DNA of 64,000 bases from an uncultured Acetobacteraceae bacterium (GTDB lineage Bacteria; Pseudomonadota; Alphaproteobacteria; Acetobacterales; Acetobacteraceae), in the NCBI GenBank assembly GCA_903918195.1, contig CAIXDS010000157.1, forward strand, positions 1-64,000, read 5' to 3'. The position numbers and the translations under genes are program-made. Positions 8,570 through 53,640 of this stretch are shown piece after piece. The notes beneath the pieces were generated by a model that saw only the letters and a list, made by a program, of their open reading frames with translations, did not search any database and was not told where the DNA came from. Each line of letters opens with the position of its first letter. Position 1 is the stretch's first letter.

Positions 8570-8845
8570 TCAGTGCGCCTGCCACCCGCTGGTACCGGCG
8601 CAGATCACCGGCACCGCGATGCTGCCGCCGCAAATGTCGCCAACCGAGATTGTCACCGCCCCGGTGCGGCCGGCGACGCTGGTCACCGGCGCGGCCGAGA
8701 GCGGCACGAAACCGAGCGTGGTCGTGATATCCAGCGCGTCGAGCTGGCGCTGCGTTTGCGCCTGCGCGGGGGGTGTCGCGCCGGCGACGCAGAGGGCAGC
8801 CACCATGACGATGGCGCACCAGGTGCGCGCAATCCTGCGGATCAT
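8570..8845 (-). CDS. Short secreted fibre-like protein, probable truncated duplicate
   Basis: A 91-residue protein with a strong signal peptide (MIRRIARTWCAIVMVAALCV, cleavage near AQAQ) followed by SVAGRTGAVTISVGD, the same motif as in the large fibre at 4543-6501. It stops shortly after, so it looks like the N-terminal part of a fibre gene cut down by recombination. Whether it is expressed is unknown. It sits directly upstream of the YmfQ-like gene, between canonical baseplate genes. Confidence 0.6.
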   Translation of the reverse strand: MIRRIARTWCAIVMVAALCVAGATPPAQAQTQRQLDALDITTTLGFVPLSAAPVTSVAGRTGAVTISVGDICGGSIAVPVICAGTSGWQAH

Positions 8846-8888
8846 GTGACGCTCCGGAATGTGTGAGGCGGGGCGCGCCGGGCTGGCG

Positions 8889-10028
8889 CTATTCGAAAGT
8901 GACCGTGCCGAGGGTTGGCAGGGCGCCGGTGGGCGCGGTGCTGACGGCGGAGGGCGACGCCAGCGTGAACCGCACCAGCCCCGGCACGGCGGCCAGGGTG
9001 TCGGTCAGGTCGGATGGGAACAGATTGCCATTGCTGGCCCCCTCCGAGCCGACCGGCCAGGCCGTGCCGCCCACCGAGGCGACCCGCAGCAGCGCCGCCG
9101 CCAGCGCCGTGACGACCGCCGCCTGCATCGCCGTGGTGGCTGGGTACAGGTTGGCGATGGTGACGTTGACCGGGTAGACGGCCGGCGCGACCGAATAGAC
9201 CAGGGCGGTGACCGGGCGCTTCGGCCAGATGGCGTTCGCCACGGCGAGCTGGTCACCGGCGGCCGCGGTGGCGCGGGTTTCCAGCGCGGCGACGCCGTTG
9301 GTGCCCTGCGGGAACCCGCCATGCGCCGCCTCGGTCGCGTCGAACATGGTGTAGACGGTCACCGTGCCGGCGCCGGCCGCGTTCGGGGCGACCCAGGCCC
9401 GGGTGACACCGGGCACGGCGAGCGCCCATTCGAGGTAGTCGGACATCGCCCCGCCCTGCGGTGGCGCGGCATAGGCCGCCAGCATGCGCGTGCGGGTCTG
9501 GTCCTGTGTCTCGGCGTCGGCGCCGCCGGTGATGGCCGCAGCCGCCACGCCGGCCGGGCTGACACCCGCCGCACCGGCACTGAGCGTGAGCACCGTGCCA
9601 GCCGACGCATTGCCCGCGGCGCCCGCCGTGGCGGCGGTGAAGGCCACGCTGATGTTGCCGCTGCCGTTCGGCGTGCCGATCGCCGTGGTGGTGTAGACGA
9701 AGCCATCACCGCGCGTGAGGCTGGCGCCGGAAGCGACGCTGCTGCCGGTGCCGCCGGTGGTCGACCAGGTACCGGAGGCATAGGACGCCGGCAGGGCTGT
9801 GATGTTCTTCAGCGCTGCCCAGGCGAGCATCCGTTCCGCCGTCGCGCCCCAGGGCGTCGCCTCATTGGCGATCCGGTCGAGGAAGGCATAGTGCAGCGCG
9901 GCGATGCCGGCCTGCGCCCAGGCCAGGCACCACAACACCGCCACCGGCAGCAGGTTGCCGGCCTGGGTCTGCATGTCGGCCCAGATTTGATTGCGCAGCT
10001 GGGTCAGGGTCGGGCGGGGGAATGGCAT
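8889..10028 (-). CDS. Baseplate J / Mu gp47-like protein
   Basis: A 379-residue baseplate wedge protein. The start PFPRPTLTQLRNQIWADM and the AERMLAWAALKNITALPASYASG block match the Baseplate_J family, as do the repeated beta segments of small residues and the later WALAVPGVTRAWV motif. It forms the wedge around the hub in contractile tails. It follows gp46 in Mu; here a fibre-like gene and a 63-residue gene intervene, indicating modular insertion. Confidence 0.88.
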   Translation of the reverse strand: MPFPRPTLTQLRNQIWADMQTQAGNLLPVAVLWCLAWAQAGIAALHYAFLDRIANEATPWGATAERMLAWAALKNITALPASYASGTWSTTGGTGSSVASGASLTRGDGFVYTTTAIGTPNGSGNISVAFTAATAGAAGNASAGTVLTLSAGAAGVSPAGVAAAAITGGADAETQDQTRTRMLAAYAAPPQGGAMSDYLEWALAVPGVTRAWVAPNAAGAGTVTVYTMFDATEAAHGGFPQGTNGVAALETRATAAAGDQLAVANAIWPKRPVTALVYSVAPAVYPVNVTIANLYPATTAMQAAVVTALAAALLRVASVGGTAWPVGSEGASNGNLFPSDLTDTLAAVPGLVRFTLASPSAVSTAPTGALPTLGTVTFE

Positions 10029-10037
10029 TGGCAGCCG

Positions 10038-10229
10038 TCACGCGGGTTGCGCGATGGCGTCGGCCGGCACGGCACAAGCCGCCTGCGCCCGCTGTGCCGC
10101 AACCACTTGTTGCTGAAGATCGTGGATCAACGGGGCGGAGACCTTGTAGGGCAGCTCCCCGAGCCCCGCCGCAACGATGTGCCACTGAGCCAGCGTGAAC
10201 GCGGCGGGTATTTTCGGTTGTTCGTCCAT
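10038..10229 (-). CDS. Small phage protein of unknown function
   Basis: A 63-residue, mainly helical acidic protein (MDEQPKIPAAFTLAQWHIVAAG). It lies 9 bp upstream of the fibre gene's 3' end and 9 bp before the baseplate J gene, in the same direction. It has no cysteine motif or membrane segment. Perhaps a fibre chaperone, judged only by size and position. Confidence 0.55.
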   Translation of the reverse strand: MDEQPKIPAAFTLAQWHIVAAGLGELPYKVSAPLIHDLQQQVVAAQRAQAACAVPADAIAQPA

Positions 10230-46813: not shown

Positions 46814-47103
46814 TTCCGCTTTCCGCCATCGACCCGCCGGCCGAAAACGTGCGCCGCCTGCCGGCCAACCGCGACGGCGATGAGGCACTGGCGCGCTCGA
46901 TCGCCTCGCTCGGGGTGTTGCAGCCGGTGCTGGTGATCGACGGCGAGCGCCGTGCGCGCCTCGCCCAGGATGCGGGGCTACCCCTCAATGGCGACATGGC
47001 CCCCTGGGACGACCTGCTGGCCGGCGGCAAGTTGGAGGAACGGCTTGGGGAGCTGGACGATCTGAAAACTACCCTCGGCGCCCAGAAGGATGCCACCAAG
47101 TGA
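46807..47103 (+). CDS. Short ParB-like domain protein
   Basis: A 98-residue protein with only the N-terminal part of a ParB fold: LIPLSAIDPPAENVRRL, LARSIASLGVLQPVLVIDGERRARL. The GERR box is intact but no HTH follows. The C-terminal half is acidic. It overlaps the excisionase gene as GTGA. A remnant or a small regulator of integrase/excisionase functions is possible. Confidence 0.7.
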   Translation: MLIPLSAIDPPAENVRRLPANRDGDEALARSIASLGVLQPVLVIDGERRARLAQDAGLPLNGDMAPWDDLLAGGKLEERLGELDDLKTTLGAQKDATK

Positions 47104-47351
47104 GCGACGCAGCCTCGCCGCCGGCGGATGAAGCATACCTGCGCATCCCCGAGGTCGAGCGCCGCACGGGCCTCGACCACTCGACCATTTACGCCAGGAT
47201 CAAGAAGGGCACCTTCCCCCTGCCGCGCATGATCGGGGAACGCGCGGTTGCCTGGCTGCAATCCGAGGTCGTCGCCTGGATGCACGCTCAGCCGGTCGCG
47301 GAAGGGCGGCCCGGGCCGAGGAGTAGGCCGCGTGGACAGAAGGCAGCGTGA
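47100..47351 (+). CDS. AlpA-family excisionase / regulator
   Basis: An 83-residue protein: YLRIPEVERRTGLDHSTIYARIKKGTFPLPRMIGERAVAWLQSEVVAWM, which is the AlpA helix-turn-helix with its W-x-x-x-E-V-x-x-W end. A GTG start overlaps the previous stop. AlpA-like proteins act as excisionases for P4-type integrases, and one is encoded nearby (51920-53161). It is the last gene of this operon. Confidence 0.88.
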   Translation: MSDAASPPADEAYLRIPEVERRTGLDHSTIYARIKKGTFPLPRMIGERAVAWLQSEVVAWMHAQPVAEGRPGPRSRPRGQKAA

Positions 47352-47783: not shown

Positions 47784-47894
47784 CTAGTGCCTCGCGTCTC
47801 TCAAACTGCGGTGGTTTGAAGAGCTGCTTCCGATCCCGCCTGAGGCTGCGGATGGACGACGGACCACCGCAGTTTGAGAGACGCGAGGCACTAG
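47784..47894. repeat. Perfect 32-bp inverted repeat at the cargo 3' boundary
   Basis: The 32 bases at 47784-47815 are the exact reverse complement of 47863-47894, with a 47-bp loop. The right arm includes the stop codon of the TPR gene. Without a U-tract it is not a standard terminator, though such a hairpin could stabilise the mRNA 3' end. It may also be the scar of an inverted duplication when the cargo arrived. Confidence 0.85.
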
Positions 47895-50341
47895 ACGGCT
47901 TCGGCCAAAAGGATATTTCGTTCGGCTGTCTCAATCCAACCTTCCGGACGTGTCGGCGCCTCTTCGATCAACTGATGACGACGTGCGATCTCGTTGGCCA
48001 GATTGATGACATCGGCGGGTCCCGCGTTGGCGTGGATCCGAGCAAGGTACTGCCGGGCTTTGCCTGTACGATGGGTCGCTGCCAGGACGTGAAGCGAGAT
48101 CAAATTACTAACCTCGTCCGGGTTCGCCTCCACCAACCGGCGAGCTTCTTTCCAACAGCTCCGGCGAAGCTCGATGGTGGCAAGAAGGTCGCGCATCCGA
48201 CGGCGTTCAAACGCGAACGGACAAAGCGGAATGAAATGGGCGAGCATCTTAGCTGCCGCGTGATACCCGTCTCTATCCACGATCAGAAAGGCTCTGAGTG
48301 CAAGCATTCTCCAATCGCTGCGCGCCCTCGGGTGCTGGATAGGCAACAGCGCTGCCGCCTCATCATTCCTGCGAAGCCTGATCAGAAGCGCTGCTTTCCC
48401 TAGTGTGGCACCGAACTGATGAGGCCTCTCTGCCAAGATGGCATCATAAGCCTGCATGGCTTCATCCTCGACGCCGAGACGACTCAATATGCCTGCTCGC
48501 ACGACACGGCCATACATGTCGAATGGAAACTCAGCAATAAACCTGTCCAGGGCCACAAGGGCGTCACTAAACCGCCCTTGAGATCGATAGATAGCAACAA
48601 GGGCAGAAGCAAACCGTCGATCGGAACGAAAGCGATTTCGACCTTCCTCGACTATAGCAAGCGCTTCGTCGAAGCGACTAAGATGTCGAAGAACACTTAT
48701 CTTTCCGATGATCGGCTCGGCGCGATAAGGTGACCGCTCTATGGCCTGCTCGTAAGCGGCAAGGGCCAAGTCGAGTTTCCCCTGGTCCTTAAGGACGTCT
48801 CCACGACCGCATAAGGCGAAAGAGTTATTGGAATAATCGGCCAGGATTTCATCATAGATTGTCAGCGCTTCGGAGAGATTGCCGATGACTCTGTAGGCAC
48901 GGGCTCTCCCCGTGCGCGCGATCAAGGAGTCATGCGTCGCCGCTTTCGAATAGGTTTGGAACGCCTCATCGATTTGTCCCAAGTCTACAAGGGTGGATGC
49001 CAAGCCGGCCCAAACGCTGGGCTCCGTCGATGAAAAGATTGCTAGTCTTCGGTATTCGGCTAGCGCACCATGGACGTCGCCGAGCTCTCGAAGAGCTTCC
49101 GCGGCACCTAACTGGGCGTACACAACTGACCGAGCCCCTTCGAAATTGCGCGCTGCCGCGATGAAGGCATCCCGTGCTTCACGCACACGGCCCTGGGCGC
49201 GCAAAATTCTAGCCCGTCCGGTCGCCGCAAACAGAGGATCGCCGTGCTTCTCGACAGCCCTCAGCGCTTCCTCCGCTTCCGGATAGGAACCAATATCGAT
49301 TAGCACATTGGCAAGATGGCCGAACGCAATCGGATCTACCGGGTTTGCTTCAATCGCTTCACGTGACCATTCAAGCGCAAGATCTGGCATATCATGCCGC
49401 CTGGCTTGTTGAGCCATATTGCTAAATGACTTCGCGACCTGATCAGGTGTGGAGTTAATTCTCTGCGCAGCAACTAGGTCGGACATCAACTGACGCGCTC
49501 GATCAATATCGCGCTCTTGGATTTTTGCGATGATTGCTCGCTGTTGCGCCATTACGCTACTGAACGCCGCATAGCTTGGCTGCCTCGAATAAGCCTCGAA
49601 ACTCTCGTCTTCTTCGACGGACTCTGCTTCCTGACTGCGGATTTCGGCTTTCGGCAGCCGCTTCAGGCCTCCTTGCAAACCTTCGAACCACTGCGAAACC
49701 GCACCCACAAATGCTCGGTGTTGGCTTGCGATCTTCAGTCGAAGAAACGTGAGATCCTTGTTCGCCGATAACTCGGTCACGGCATCAAGAAACCTTCCTT
49801 CCTCCATGAGCTGTGAGCGCATTTTGCTCTTCTCTTCGTGACCACCGAAGCTTGTTGTAGGGACAGCCTCGAAAGCTTCCCGAACGCGGACGACAAACCC
49901 CTGAACGCTGAGCAGCCATTGGAATAGTTCGCGGACTTGGTCGAGGGCTGCGCACGCTTTTTCAACACGAGTAGCCTCGATCAATGTCGTCAACGGAGAC
50001 GCTGCTAAGCGATGCTTTAGAAGGACAAGAATCGGATGACCGCTGAGAAGCTCGGCGACGCATTGAGCATACTCTCCGAGCTCGTCCTCAGGCTCGGTCG
50101 GATCCATAAGAAATAAAAACAGTCGGAGGGCACGGTCCGCCGCCCAGGCCAATTCGACCCGACGATCGAGCTCGTCAAGGCCCTGGACATCCACGATCCG
50201 AACGTCCAAGCAGCCATCGAAAACTCGCAAGGCGTCAGACGAGTGCCATGGCGCGGACACGGCCCCGCTCGCGGTTCGAAGCTGCGGTCTGGGGCCCAGA
50301 ATAACCGACACCCCAGCCTCCCCGGAGAAGAAGGCTTTCAC
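47891..50341 (-). CDS. TPR-repeat protein with an unidentified N-terminal domain (cargo)
   Basis: An 816-residue protein. Residues 1-130 look like an alpha/beta domain: VKAFFSGEAGVSVILGP, DVRIVDVQGLDELDRRVELAW, LFLFLMDP and HPILVLLKHRL, somewhat like GTPase G3/G4 elements but with no P-loop. From about residue 290 to 790 there are many TPR-like helical pairs (A-x-x-G-x-L-x-x-A pattern, e.g. ALAAYEQAIERSPYRAEPI), making a protein-binding superhelix. GTG starts inside the upstream stop as GTGA. It is AT-richer than the phage genes, suggesting separate origin. Confidence 0.8.
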   Translation of the reverse strand: MKAFFSGEAGVSVILGPRPQLRTASGAVSAPWHSSDALRVFDGCLDVRIVDVQGLDELDRRVELAWAADRALRLFLFLMDPTEPEDELGEYAQCVAELLSGHPILVLLKHRLAASPLTTLIEATRVEKACAALDQVRELFQWLLSVQGFVVRVREAFEAVPTTSFGGHEEKSKMRSQLMEEGRFLDAVTELSANKDLTFLRLKIASQHRAFVGAVSQWFEGLQGGLKRLPKAEIRSQEAESVEEDESFEAYSRQPSYAAFSSVMAQQRAIIAKIQERDIDRARQLMSDLVAAQRINSTPDQVAKSFSNMAQQARRHDMPDLALEWSREAIEANPVDPIAFGHLANVLIDIGSYPEAEEALRAVEKHGDPLFAATGRARILRAQGRVREARDAFIAAARNFEGARSVVYAQLGAAEALRELGDVHGALAEYRRLAIFSSTEPSVWAGLASTLVDLGQIDEAFQTYSKAATHDSLIARTGRARAYRVIGNLSEALTIYDEILADYSNNSFALCGRGDVLKDQGKLDLALAAYEQAIERSPYRAEPIIGKISVLRHLSRFDEALAIVEEGRNRFRSDRRFASALVAIYRSQGRFSDALVALDRFIAEFPFDMYGRVVRAGILSRLGVEDEAMQAYDAILAERPHQFGATLGKAALLIRLRRNDEAAALLPIQHPRARSDWRMLALRAFLIVDRDGYHAAAKMLAHFIPLCPFAFERRRMRDLLATIELRRSCWKEARRLVEANPDEVSNLISLHVLAATHRTGKARQYLARIHANAGPADVINLANEIARRHQLIEEAPTRPEGWIETAERNILLAEAV

Positions 50342-51192
50342 GTTGTCACCTCTACGACAGCGCCGTACTCCTTGGCCTTGCGGACTGCCTGCTTCCAAAC
50401 CTGACGGTCAGCACGTGTGGTAGGCTCCGGACCGACGATACGTTCAATCCCTAGGCGGTTGATAGGCCCAAAGATATGCACCTCTACGAAATCACAATCC
50501 GATGCGTTGTGCCTAGGCTCCATCAAAATTCCGGCAAAGCCATCGGCGCCGCAGCCTGGCGCTATGGTGGGCTGCAATTTGGCGACTGCGAGCCGGCCGC
50601 GGTCGCCCCACGTTGCTCGATAGCCGGGCGGTGGAGCTTGGCCGGCTAGCACGTGATGTGTCTTGCAAAAATAGAACGAATTTTGTTCAAAAACACTGGC
50701 TCGTTCATCAATGATAAGCGATCTCACCGTGACGGCGTAGGGCCCATAATAGTCCATTCCTCTGCCGTCAAGGGTAAGCGCTGCATAGTTAAGTTCTTGA
50801 TAATAAATTGGATTAATTGCAGCTTCGGCAGCGCCACGCTGCTGATCCCAATCGGTCTCGGCAGGCGTCCGCCCTAAATAGTTAACCTGATGGTAGAACG
50901 AGTAGAACATAGGACTATCGCCGTTAAGCCAATTGCTCAGCGCGCCGAGTGATCGGTTCATCACCGCCTTTGATGATGTAGCAACTGCAGACTCGAACGC
51001 ATGCACCTCTGCGATGACGTTGCGCGCTTTGGCTGATGCCAGCGCGTCGTTGTAGCGGATCGACAGCGCCGCAGCCTCCTTGGAGGAGCCGGCGACTTTG
51101 ACGTTCGGGAAACCAGATTCCCTGTGGCAAACAGGACATTCCCGCAATGTCAGAGGGACGGCCGCGCCGCATTTTTGGCAAATGTCTGACAT
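50338..51192 (-). CDS. Zinc-ribbon protein with an unidentified C-terminal domain (cargo)
   Basis: A 284-residue protein. CQKC and CPVC near the N-terminus form a zinc ribbon. A helical part follows, then beta-rich sequence: LDGRGMDYYGPYAVTV, DERASVFEQNSFYF and a final DFVEVHIFGPINRLGIERI. The last strands faintly recall ADP-ribosyltransferase-like folds, a low-confidence guess. It is translationally coupled to the TPR gene, so the two probably act together. The ATG at 51192 is preferred to an upstream TTG. Confidence 0.75.
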   Translation of the reverse strand: MSDICQKCGAAVPLTLRECPVCHRESGFPNVKVAGSSKEAAALSIRYNDALASAKARNVIAEVHAFESAVATSSKAVMNRSLGALSNWLNGDSPMFYSFYHQVNYLGRTPAETDWDQQRGAAEAAINPIYYQELNYAALTLDGRGMDYYGPYAVTVRSLIIDERASVFEQNSFYFCKTHHVLAGQAPPPGYRATWGDRGRLAVAKLQPTIAPGCGADGFAGILMEPRHNASDCDFVEVHIFGPINRLGIERIVGPEPTTRADRQVWKQAVRKAKEYGAVVEVTT

Positions 51193-51919
51193 CGGCAAGA
51201 GAGGATCGTTCCGTCAGTGGGCCGAGATTGCCCCGACCGCCGAGTAGTAACCTAGCCGTGAGCGGTCTGGAAGGCAAACCACCCATTGCGGCAATTCCGC
51301 TTCACGCTGTAAGCTAAATAGGCTTCACAACGGTTCGTGAAGGGTCAGGCCGTTCAAGCCTGGACGGCCGAAATGGCCGCCACCTGCCGTGCCTGTCGCG
51401 CAATTACGGATCGGAACGAAGTTGCGCAACATATTGCGGTTATCGCTGTGAAGTGGACACAATATGTTGTGTCGCGTTGAACTAAAAACGAATTCGCCAC
51501 AGGCTCCTGCCGTCGACGAGTTCAAAGTTCGAACGTTCGAACCTCTGCTTGTCGTCGTTGGACACTGCAAAGCAGCCGGTCCGGATTCGGCCAGGCTCAG
51601 CCATCGGTCCCGACCGGACAGCCAGCCCCTGTATGTCGGCTTTGGACGAGGAAGCTGCCGTCACTCCGCCGTGGGTGAGTGATAGCTTCACACGCTAAGC
51701 GGTCCATCCAAGGCAGACCGATCCTCGTCGAAACCAGATGGCCGGTTTTGGGAAGCCAGGATAATCGCCCTGGCCACCCGTCAAAATCGCCGTGCCGAGG
51801 TGGCGGCGGCTTCGGGTGTGGTCGCCCTGCGTGCGGGCGGGTTGCCGGCCGAATGCGGCGACAGCGCAGTACCCCGCGTAAATCGGGATTGTCACGCGCG
51901 CCACCGGGCGGCATGGTCC
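51193..51919. other. Intergenic region between cargo and integrase
   Basis: About 725 bp without a supportable gene. It holds palindromes CTTCAC-N8-GTGAAG (51323-51342) and ACACAA-TATG-TTGTGT near 51450. The word ATATGTTGTGT also appears in reverse near 443-455 at the left of the window. These may be integrase or regulator binding sites. The cargo promoter should be here, but I see no strong -35/-10 pair. Confidence 0.5.
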
Positions 51920-53161
51920 TCATTTCCGCGGCAGGATCAGCAGATCAGCCGCTGGCGGCATCCCTTCCATCAGCAGCCGAGCCCACTCCTCGGCGATCTC
52001 CCGGCGCAGCGGGGCGTGGCGGGCGCGATTGTAGACGCGCTCGACCTCGTCCTTCGCCACATGCGCCAGCATGAGGTCGATAACCAACCTGTCACCTGGC
52101 CTTCGGTCGTTCATCACCGTGCTGAACGTCGCGCGCCAGCCGTGCGGCACATGCCGCCCATGCAGGCCCGCCCTGTTGAGCAAGTACCCGATGGCGTTCT
52201 CGCTCATGGGAGTGTGCGCGGATCGCCAGGATGGAAAGGGTATAGGCCCCCTGCCCGTCAGCGTCCTGACCGCGATCAGGGTTTCCACGGCCGCGGGAGC
52301 CAGCGGGACGAGATGGTCGGGGGTGTCGGCCTGGCGCTCCCGAGTCGTCTTCATCCGCAAGGCCGGGATGATCCACACGGGGTCCGGTCCATCCAGCCCT
52401 TGAAACTCCTCCCACCGTGCCCCCCGGAGTTCTCCCGGGCGGACAGCGGTCAGGGCCAGGAGACGAAGGGCCATGCGGGTGACGGGATGGGCAGGGATTG
52501 CTTCGGCGGCCCGCAGGATCGCCCTCGCCTCTTCCAGCGTTCCGGCGGCGGGCCGGCGGCCGGTGCGGATGACGGGGGCGAGCACCCGGCGCAGGCTGGT
52601 GACCGGGTTCGCAGGTGCATGACCGAGCGCGACGGCGTGGTCCATGACGGCCTGGATGCGCTGCCGCAGCCGATGCGCCTTCTCGGTCGCACCACGGGCC
52701 TCGACCACGCGAAGCACTTCCAGCACGGCCGGCGCCGTGATGCCGGCGACCGGCGTGGCGCCGATCAGCGGGAACACCTCACGTTCAAGAGAGGCGATGA
52801 CATCGCCGGCGTGGTGGGGTGCCCACATGCGGCGGTTGGCATCATGCCAAGCCCTCGCCTCGGCCTCGAAGGTGCGAACGGTTGGCGCTGCCTGCGGCGG
52901 ACGGATGGCAATGGCGGGGTCCCGTCCATCGCGCAGGGCGGCCAGTGCTGTGTCGCGTCGCTGCCGGGCCAGGGCGAGTCCCACCTCCGGGTAGGCGCCG
53001 AGGGTTAGGACGTGGTCTTTGCCGGCACGGATATAGCGGTACCGCCAGGACCGGGCGCCAGCGGGCGACACCAGCAAGATCAACCCATTGCCGTCGGCCA
53101 CCTTCTGCGGCTTCGGGCCGGGCTTGATCGTCCGCAGCTTGGCGTCTGTGAGGCGTGCCAC
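51920..53161 (-). CDS. Tyrosine integrase (P4-like, DUF4102 N-terminus)
   Basis: A 413-residue site-specific recombinase. Residues 1-80 form the DUF4102 arm-binding domain (LTDAKLRTIKPGPKPQKVADGNGL, YRYIRAGKDHVLTLGAYPEVGLALAR). The catalytic domain has TAVRPGELRGARW with the first Arg, HVPHGWRATFSTVMND with the H-x-x-R pair, and LAHVAKDEVERVYNRA with the His and nucleophilic Tyr. A GTG start is likely. It is adjacent to the tRNA-Arg 3' end, as in classical tRNA-targeting elements. Confidence 0.95.
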   Translation of the reverse strand: MARLTDAKLRTIKPGPKPQKVADGNGLILLVSPAGARSWRYRYIRAGKDHVLTLGAYPEVGLALARQRRDTALAALRDGRDPAIAIRPPQAAPTVRTFEAEARAWHDANRRMWAPHHAGDVIASLEREVFPLIGATPVAGITAPAVLEVLRVVEARGATEKAHRLRQRIQAVMDHAVALGHAPANPVTSLRRVLAPVIRTGRRPAAGTLEEARAILRAAEAIPAHPVTRMALRLLALTAVRPGELRGARWEEFQGLDGPDPVWIIPALRMKTTRERQADTPDHLVPLAPAAVETLIAVRTLTGRGPIPFPSWRSAHTPMSENAIGYLLNRAGLHGRHVPHGWRATFSTVMNDRRPGDRLVIDLMLAHVAKDEVERVYNRARHAPLRREIAEEWARLLMEGMPPAADLLILPRK

Positions 53162-53330
53162 CTTGGTCCTCGCTAGATGGGACTCGTCATCGGCCGAGTC
53201 CCGTCTGGAGTCCCACCTTGCACCGCGATGCCCCGCGACGCAATGCGATGACCGCCGATGTTACAGCGCTGATCAGAAAGGGGTTTTGGTAGCCTGGGCG
53301 ATGTCGGAAGATGGCCCGCGAGCGGTAAAT
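53162..53330. promoter_or_regulatory. Integrase upstream / attachment-proximal region
   Basis: An 8-bp perfect stem GGGACTCG / CGAGTCCC occurs at 53179-53186 with 53195-53202. This is the segment between the integrase start and the tRNA 3' end. It should hold the integrase promoter and arm-type sites. I could not define an attachment core because the partner site is not in view. Confidence 0.5.
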
Positions 53331-53640
53331 GGCGACCCCAGCAGGACTCGAACCTGCGACCTACCGCTTAGCATCCCACTTCGGCTTCCGCCGCCGCCCC
53401 CGCGGACGAACCGGGGGGCGTTCGTGGTCTGGACCATCCCTTCGCCATGGGCCGAAGCGCGGCCGACAGGCGCCTGCCGTCTGGTCTCTACACCTTCCCG
53501 GCATGCGCCGGGCTTGGCTCGGGATTGCCAGGCCCTGGTCGGGCTCAGGGTTCCCCGAATTTGACAGGTTCTGCGTCCGCTGTTTCCGGCGGCGCACTCC
53601 TACCGAAGGCGGTTGCTCTATCCAACTGAGCTATGGGGCC
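53331..53640 (-). tRNA. tRNA-Arg(UCU) interrupted by a group I intron
   Basis: The 5' exon (53640 to 53606) and the 3' exon (53372 to 53331) join to give a normal cloverleaf. The acceptor is GGCCCCA/TGGGGTC with one G-U pair, the D-arm contains GTTGG, the anticodon stem is ACCGC/GCGGT, and CCA is encoded. The loop CTT plus CTAA reads CTTCTAA, giving UCU for AGA/AGG codons. The intron falls between anticodon bases 34 and 35. The phage integrase lies at its 3' end. Confidence 0.88.
53373..53605 (-). ncRNA. Group I intron (IC3-like) in tRNA-Arg
   Basis: A 233-nt intron. Core blocks on the minus strand, in order: GTCAAATTC (53565-53557), GTGTAGAGACCAGACGGCA (53493-53475) and GGGATGGTCCAGACCAC (53440-53424). 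These match my memory of the Azoarcus tRNA-Ile intron core, including the P7 and J8/7 region. The last base is G. A hand-drawn P1 pairs exon CGCCTT with GAG-T-GCG and leaves a terminal U-G at the splice site. No ORF is present. Splice junctions are uncertain by a base or two. Confidence 0.88.

Follow-up and report, generated by a model that had tools for sequence, protein, structure and literature searches.

The fold of ADP-ribosyltransferases (ARTs), and two-gene modules built around it, are already known. SopF, a Salmonella ART effector with the catalytic triad I-Y-E (PMC10333799), is a single secreted protein that is activated by host ARF. The ADP-riboxanases OspC3 and CopC, which are injected into animal cells and activated by calmodulin, have an ART-like fold, depend on the glutamate and histidine of an ExH motif (E326/H328 in OspC3, E325/H327 in CopC), and carry in the same chain a C-terminal solenoid of ankyrin repeats that recruits the substrate to the ART domain (PMC9239266). 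In DarTG, the ART-fold protein DarT is accompanied by DarG, an antitoxin with a macrodomain, which erases the mark, and in the three-gene anti-phage system CmdTAC a diphtheria-type ART (H-Y-E) is held by a small antitoxin and a SecB-like chaperone until phage sensing frees it to block translation (PMC11618068). The subject here is a further two-gene locus, found in a 64,000-nucleotide stretch of DNA from an uncultured Acetobacteraceae bacterium (contig CAIXDS010000157.1; hereafter the window), in which the gene for a zinc-ribbon effector with a predicted ART fold overlaps the gene for a partner protein that joins a conserved N-terminal domain to an exchangeable tail, in this case an array of tetratricopeptide repeats (TPRs).

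The pair sits in a prophage, as confirmed by terminase, primase and antiterminator genes at 29-44 kb, and its two genes are the only occupants of a cargo slot between an excisionase and the integrase. A first-pass annotation of the window had reported an AT-rich gene pair in this position, overlapping by four bases and encoding a CxxC-CxxC zinc-ribbon protein and a protein with an alpha/beta N-terminus followed by TPRs. The two-gene observation is confirmed: open reading frames and matches to phrog_66 (AlpA-like excisionase) and phrog_1 (integrase) place the pair as described, the three 1-kb bins spanning 48001-51000 have the lowest guanine-plus-cytosine content of the window's 64 (0.556-0.565), the genes share GTGA at 50341-50338 on the minus strand, the zinc cysteines are conserved, and Pfam matches and an AlphaFold2 model recover the layout of the second protein. 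The enzyme gene is present in a single copy in the source genome.

Homologues extend the comparison to 49 loci, the window and 48 others. A profile of the partner's N-terminal domain (A5) places that domain immediately after the enzyme gene in each of the 48 loci with enough sequence, the window included; one locus (L029) stops at a contig edge and was left out of the count. About 17 of these 48 played no part in building the profile. Conversely, the partner domain occurs in 18 copies across 17 whole genomes, every one of them beside the enzyme. As a rule, the two genes share 1 or 4 bases or abut. Because the arrangement recurs in every homologous locus with sufficient downstream sequence, the pairing is not attributable to chance, and the joint function that had been suggested from the overlap is thereby supported.

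The AlphaFold2 model of the enzyme (mean predicted local distance difference test score, pLDDT, 95, with 34 homologues as input) bears out the faint ART resemblance that had been remarked at its C-terminus. Foldseek matches the model to SopF (E 5e-6) and DarT (E 3e-4). In VIA comparisons SopF is the best PDB match (Z 14.2 over 223 residues, 3.4 A), with the OspC3/CopC ADP-riboxanases at Z 10-11 and DarT at Z 9-10, whereas other ART effectors reach only Z 5-6 and the remaining rows are lower still. Since SopF, OspC3/CopC and DarT stand well above everything else, the C-terminal domain is, as modelled, a member of the ART fold superfamily. Among 43 homologues N30, R119, G150, W195, F235 and E237 are invariant, the last of these down to about 20% identity, and the four zinc-binding cysteines, Y149, N171, R198, K205 and H239 are conserved in at least 90%. 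The spacing of E237 and H239 equals that of the essential residues of CopC and OspC3, and it is from this ExH motif, rather than from residue-level superposition, that E237 is equated with a catalytic glutamate. On this model, the first protein would be an active ART-type enzyme. The histidine has been lost in some homologues: one Thiotrichaceae genome possesses two divergent copies of the pair (L041 and L098/L071), of which the second has E-V-F in place of E-V-H.

The N-terminal domain of the partner is modelled as a small beta part accompanied by helices (pLDDT 88), for which comparison with the PDB yields no convincing fold (best Z 5.1, covering residues 1-63 and matching a small Tas1 immunity protein) and comparison with BFVD yields nothing. 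Minimal partners that consist of this domain alone exist (L016, L024 and L095), which identifies the domain as the core of the protein and the tails as additions to it.

The TPR array of the window is one of several exchangeable tails, a feature that lay beyond a reading of the single sequence. TPR arrays are present in 30 of the 49 loci, and no tail is recognised in 12, where some partners comprise the N-terminal domain and nothing more. Two loci end in ribosomal protein S2 (Pfam E 1e-96 and 3e-87) and one, L015, in a response-regulator receiver; L041 gives a weak TIR/DUF4062 match; one case is ambiguous and two are cut by contig ends. Many TPR versions consist of near-identical 102-nucleotide units in 2-9 copies with 77-100% match, indicating recent turnover of the repeats and a repeat number that is still changing. 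The receiver tail of L015 (gene at 8813-10138) retains the usual acidic residues, and would link the module to phosphorelay signalling.

More informative still is the presence of host S2 in the tails of two relatives. Novosphingobium SG707 carries its fused S2 in addition to a normal rpsB elsewhere in the genome, to whose product it is 84% identical. The second case (L004) lies on a Rhizobium plasmid (NZ_CP050098.1, 15821-17353), where an open reading frame of 510 codons encodes the partner domain followed by S2; its public annotation is rpsB (30S ribosomal protein S2) with a late start that covers only the distal part of the frame. The fused S2s share 62% identity with each other, as against 84% and about 81% with the S2 of their respective lineages, and they retain 102 and 103 of the 106 positions that are invariant in host S2s (4 and 3 changes). 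In the S2 tree each clusters with its own host lineage, and a topology uniting the two is rejected (p-AU 2.5e-77). The S2-tailed enzymes are sisters (97/94), yet each S2 follows its own host, so the simplest account of the trees would be one fusion, the S2 part of which was later exchanged for the resident version. Independent captures of S2 are less simple given the sister position of the enzymes. Just two such cases have come to light, one of them (L004) on a long branch. The S2 tail might act as a decoy that draws in factors directed against the ribosome, or it might address the partner to the 30S subunit.

Relatives of the pair are scattered through Alphaproteobacteria, Gammaproteobacteria, Acidobacteriota, Planctomycetota, Nitrospirota and other groups, with a patchy prevalence of roughly 1% of sampled genomes and up to about 2% in one group. 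No relative was found in the annotated phage collection, and a single one was found among the plasmids searched. Matches to the zinc ribbon only (three alphaproteobacterial genomes and one Acidobacteria genome), as well as pattern matches in viral contigs that lacked tblastn support, were set aside. A survey of neighbourhoods had been proposed on the expectation that homologues lie near integrases, and this holds in part. The pair is cargo of mobile elements in the window prophage, in a phage contig (L046) that also has an integrase and tail genes, in a Sphingomonas locus flanked by an AlpA gene and an integrase (L012), in a Gallionella locus where both genes are also present (L038), and in one further locus with an integrase nearby (L008); most loci have no recognisable integrase within reach. 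Among defence neighbours, the clear case is L042, where BREX BrxHI and BrxD adjoin the pair, and a HEC-05-like and a MADS-like protein adjoin it in L022 and L037, respectively.

How does this locus compare with the described systems? SopF is the closest structural match and shares the ART fold with a catalytic glutamate, but its identity to the enzyme is about 10% and it has neither a zinc ribbon nor a paired partner gene. OspC3 and CopC share an ART-like fold, an ExH motif and the linkage of a helical-repeat module to an enzyme. They differ in carrying their repeats within one chain, whereas here the enzyme ends with the ART domain, the TPRs belong to a separate protein and nothing implies secretion; a profile search of PDB sequences detected no sequence homology of the enzyme to OspC/CopC. 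DarTG resembles the pair in its related fold and bacterial two-gene arrangement, and CmdTAC in having an ART effector held by partner proteins. The defining features of these two modules were sought and are absent: no macrodomain appears in the structural match lists of the N-terminal domain or in Pfam scans of 21 partners, library scans give no SecB match in the partner, the genes number two rather than three, and CmdTAC has no zinc ribbon, TPR or S2. Nor is the pair named in any curated library, as the first-pass annotation had anticipated. The enzyme has no significant match in PADLOC or PHROGs and only sub-threshold zinc-ribbon or RadA-type matches in Pfam and NCBIfam; the partner has none of significance in PHROGs and weak TPR-type matches only in PADLOC 2.0, and Pfam and NCBIfam recognise its TPRs and leave its N-terminal domain without a name. 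A literature search found no description of the pair, which leaves the absence of one unproven. The S2 tail is its novel element.

Together these features suggest a module that acts in phage defence or as a toxin, with some machine of the host being monitored or targeted. The account that is favoured, with slightly better than even confidence, is a two-gene conflict module in which a modular sensor controls an ART-type toxin and either releases or aims it. The first protein would be an NAD-dependent toxin, its zinc ribbon assisting the binding of substrate or partner, and the conserved N-terminal domain of the partner would dock on the toxin and keep it inactive. Binding and control of the enzyme by this domain are suggested by its constancy, by the strict pairing and by the existence of minimal partners that lack a tail. 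The exchangeable tail, be it a TPR array, an S2 copy, a receiver or another module, would act as the input, recognising either a protein of an invader or a host machine under attack, and recognition would release or aim the toxin such that the infected cell no longer supports the invader. A sensor is favoured because the tails vary as recognition modules do. Computation shows the pairing, the modularity of the tail, the ART fold, the invariant glutamate and the S2 that tracks its host, whereas use of NAD, toxicity, inhibition by the partner, the trigger and the outcome for phages are inferred. Several points weigh against this account, and the interpretation offered by the first-pass annotation is, as a whole, partly supported. 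TPR arrays are generic binding modules, and the data do not favour inhibition of the enzyme by its partner over activation or aiming. Of the catalytic triad, only the glutamate, with its neighbouring histidine, is tied to the enzyme, by way of the ExH motif, and the matches from the profile search of PDB sequences were confined to zinc ribbons and a single weak, unrelated one, with no solved ART among them. Finally, the nearest neighbours of most loci include neither a recognised defence gene nor an integrase, which limits the claim of a role in defence.

The main rival, itself unlikely, is that the partner is an adaptor that carries the enzyme to its substrate, the S2 tail entering the 30S subunit and the substrate lying on or near the ribosome (S1 or mRNA). 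OspC/CopC offer a precedent for a solenoid that recruits the substrate of an ART domain (PMC9239266), CmdT shows that an ART can defend through a block of translation (PMC11618068), and an S2 tail that is nearly intact could still bind the ribosome; on the other hand, the tail-less partners indicate that a substrate-aiming tail is not always needed, and no target common to S2 and the receiver or TPR tails is obvious. Strict pairing, overlapping genes, patchy distribution, and carriage by prophage and plasmid would also suit a simple toxin-antitoxin or addiction pair, belonging to mobile elements and without specific sensing, as would the membership of the related DarT in a toxin-antitoxin pair. 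Such a pair is nonetheless quite improbable here, as a partner of 816 residues, an exchangeable tail with expanding repeats and a captured host S2 far exceed what neutralisation of a toxin needs. There is, lastly, only a slim chance that the first protein lacks catalysis and acts in regulation, not as a toxin, be it as an inactive ART fold or as a scaffold that binds nucleic acid. The zinc ribbon suggests binding of nucleic acid or protein, and only two residues are tied to known catalytic ones; however, one of them, E237, is invariant in 43 sequences and lies in a motif that is essential in OspC/CopC.

A more specific form of the sensor account draws on plant immune receptors, which use decoys of their own essential machines. 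The partner may be a bacterial counterpart of such an integrated-decoy receptor, with a fixed docking domain and swappable bait tails. The S2 bait would stay in step with the S2 of the resident cell, and interference with the ribosome by an invader would thereby set off a killer of the ART type. This proposal is tentative and, as it stands, rather unlikely.

Table 1. Positions of the gene pair, its domains and the genes that bound the cargo slot, in window coordinates.
Feature	Position	Strand	Basis
AlpA-like excisionase of the prophage, one boundary of the cargo slot	47100..47351	+	phrog_66 E 2e-11
Partner gene (conserved N-terminal domain and TPR array)	47891..50341	-	816 aa, GTG start
TPR array, exchangeable tail in homologues	47894..49534	-	Pfam TPR matches; other tails in relatives
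Conserved partner domain, residues 1-225, without known fold	49667..50341	-	profile A5 in every testable homologous locus; AlphaFold2 pLDDT 88
Effector gene (zinc ribbon and ART-fold protein)	50338..51192	-	284 aa, ATG start; open reading frame call, AlphaFold2 model, fold matches
ART-fold domain, residues about 59-284	50341..51018	-	model range covered by structural matches
E237-V238-H239 motif, predicted catalytic Glu and near-invariant His	50476..50484	-	alignment A7; ExH spacing as in OspC3/CopC
Zinc ribbon C5-x2-C8-x10-C19-x2-C22	51127..51180	-	sequence; Cys conserved in homologues
Prophage tyrosine integrase, bounding the cargo slot on its other side	51920..53161	-	phrog_1 E 4e-49; NF007246 E 9e-52

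The surroundings of the pair have features of their own. The 0.7-kb gap between integrase and pair contains a perfect inverted repeat, CAACATATTG...CAATATGTTG, at 51427-51469 and a palindrome around GTTCGAACGTTCGAAC at 51524-51537, which are possible operator or recombination sites. Adjoining the integrase at 53330-53640 (minus strand) is a tRNA gene, missed by the default tRNA search, that is interrupted by a group I intron of about 234 nucleotides (RF00028, E 8e-8, below the gathering score). The exon sequence makes tRNA-Arg (anticodon UCU) the probable identity; ARAGORN, when permitted introns, reports Ser-gct. This intron-bearing tRNA is a likely attachment site of the prophage, and no second copy of the site was found within the window. 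The region at 53418-53641 matches, at 70% over about 230 nucleotides, an unannotated stretch of Gordonia phage Daredevil, which is perhaps an intron-bearing tRNA in that phage as well.

If the favoured account is right, a family of ART-type effectors that is rare yet widely distributed, and linked by fold to SopF and OspC, joins the arsenal of bacterial conflict, and its modular sensor or adaptor tails may be read as a list of the things that are guarded or targeted. Within that list, the host-tracking S2 tail would give a direct handle on the question whether bacteria employ decoys of essential machines of their own.
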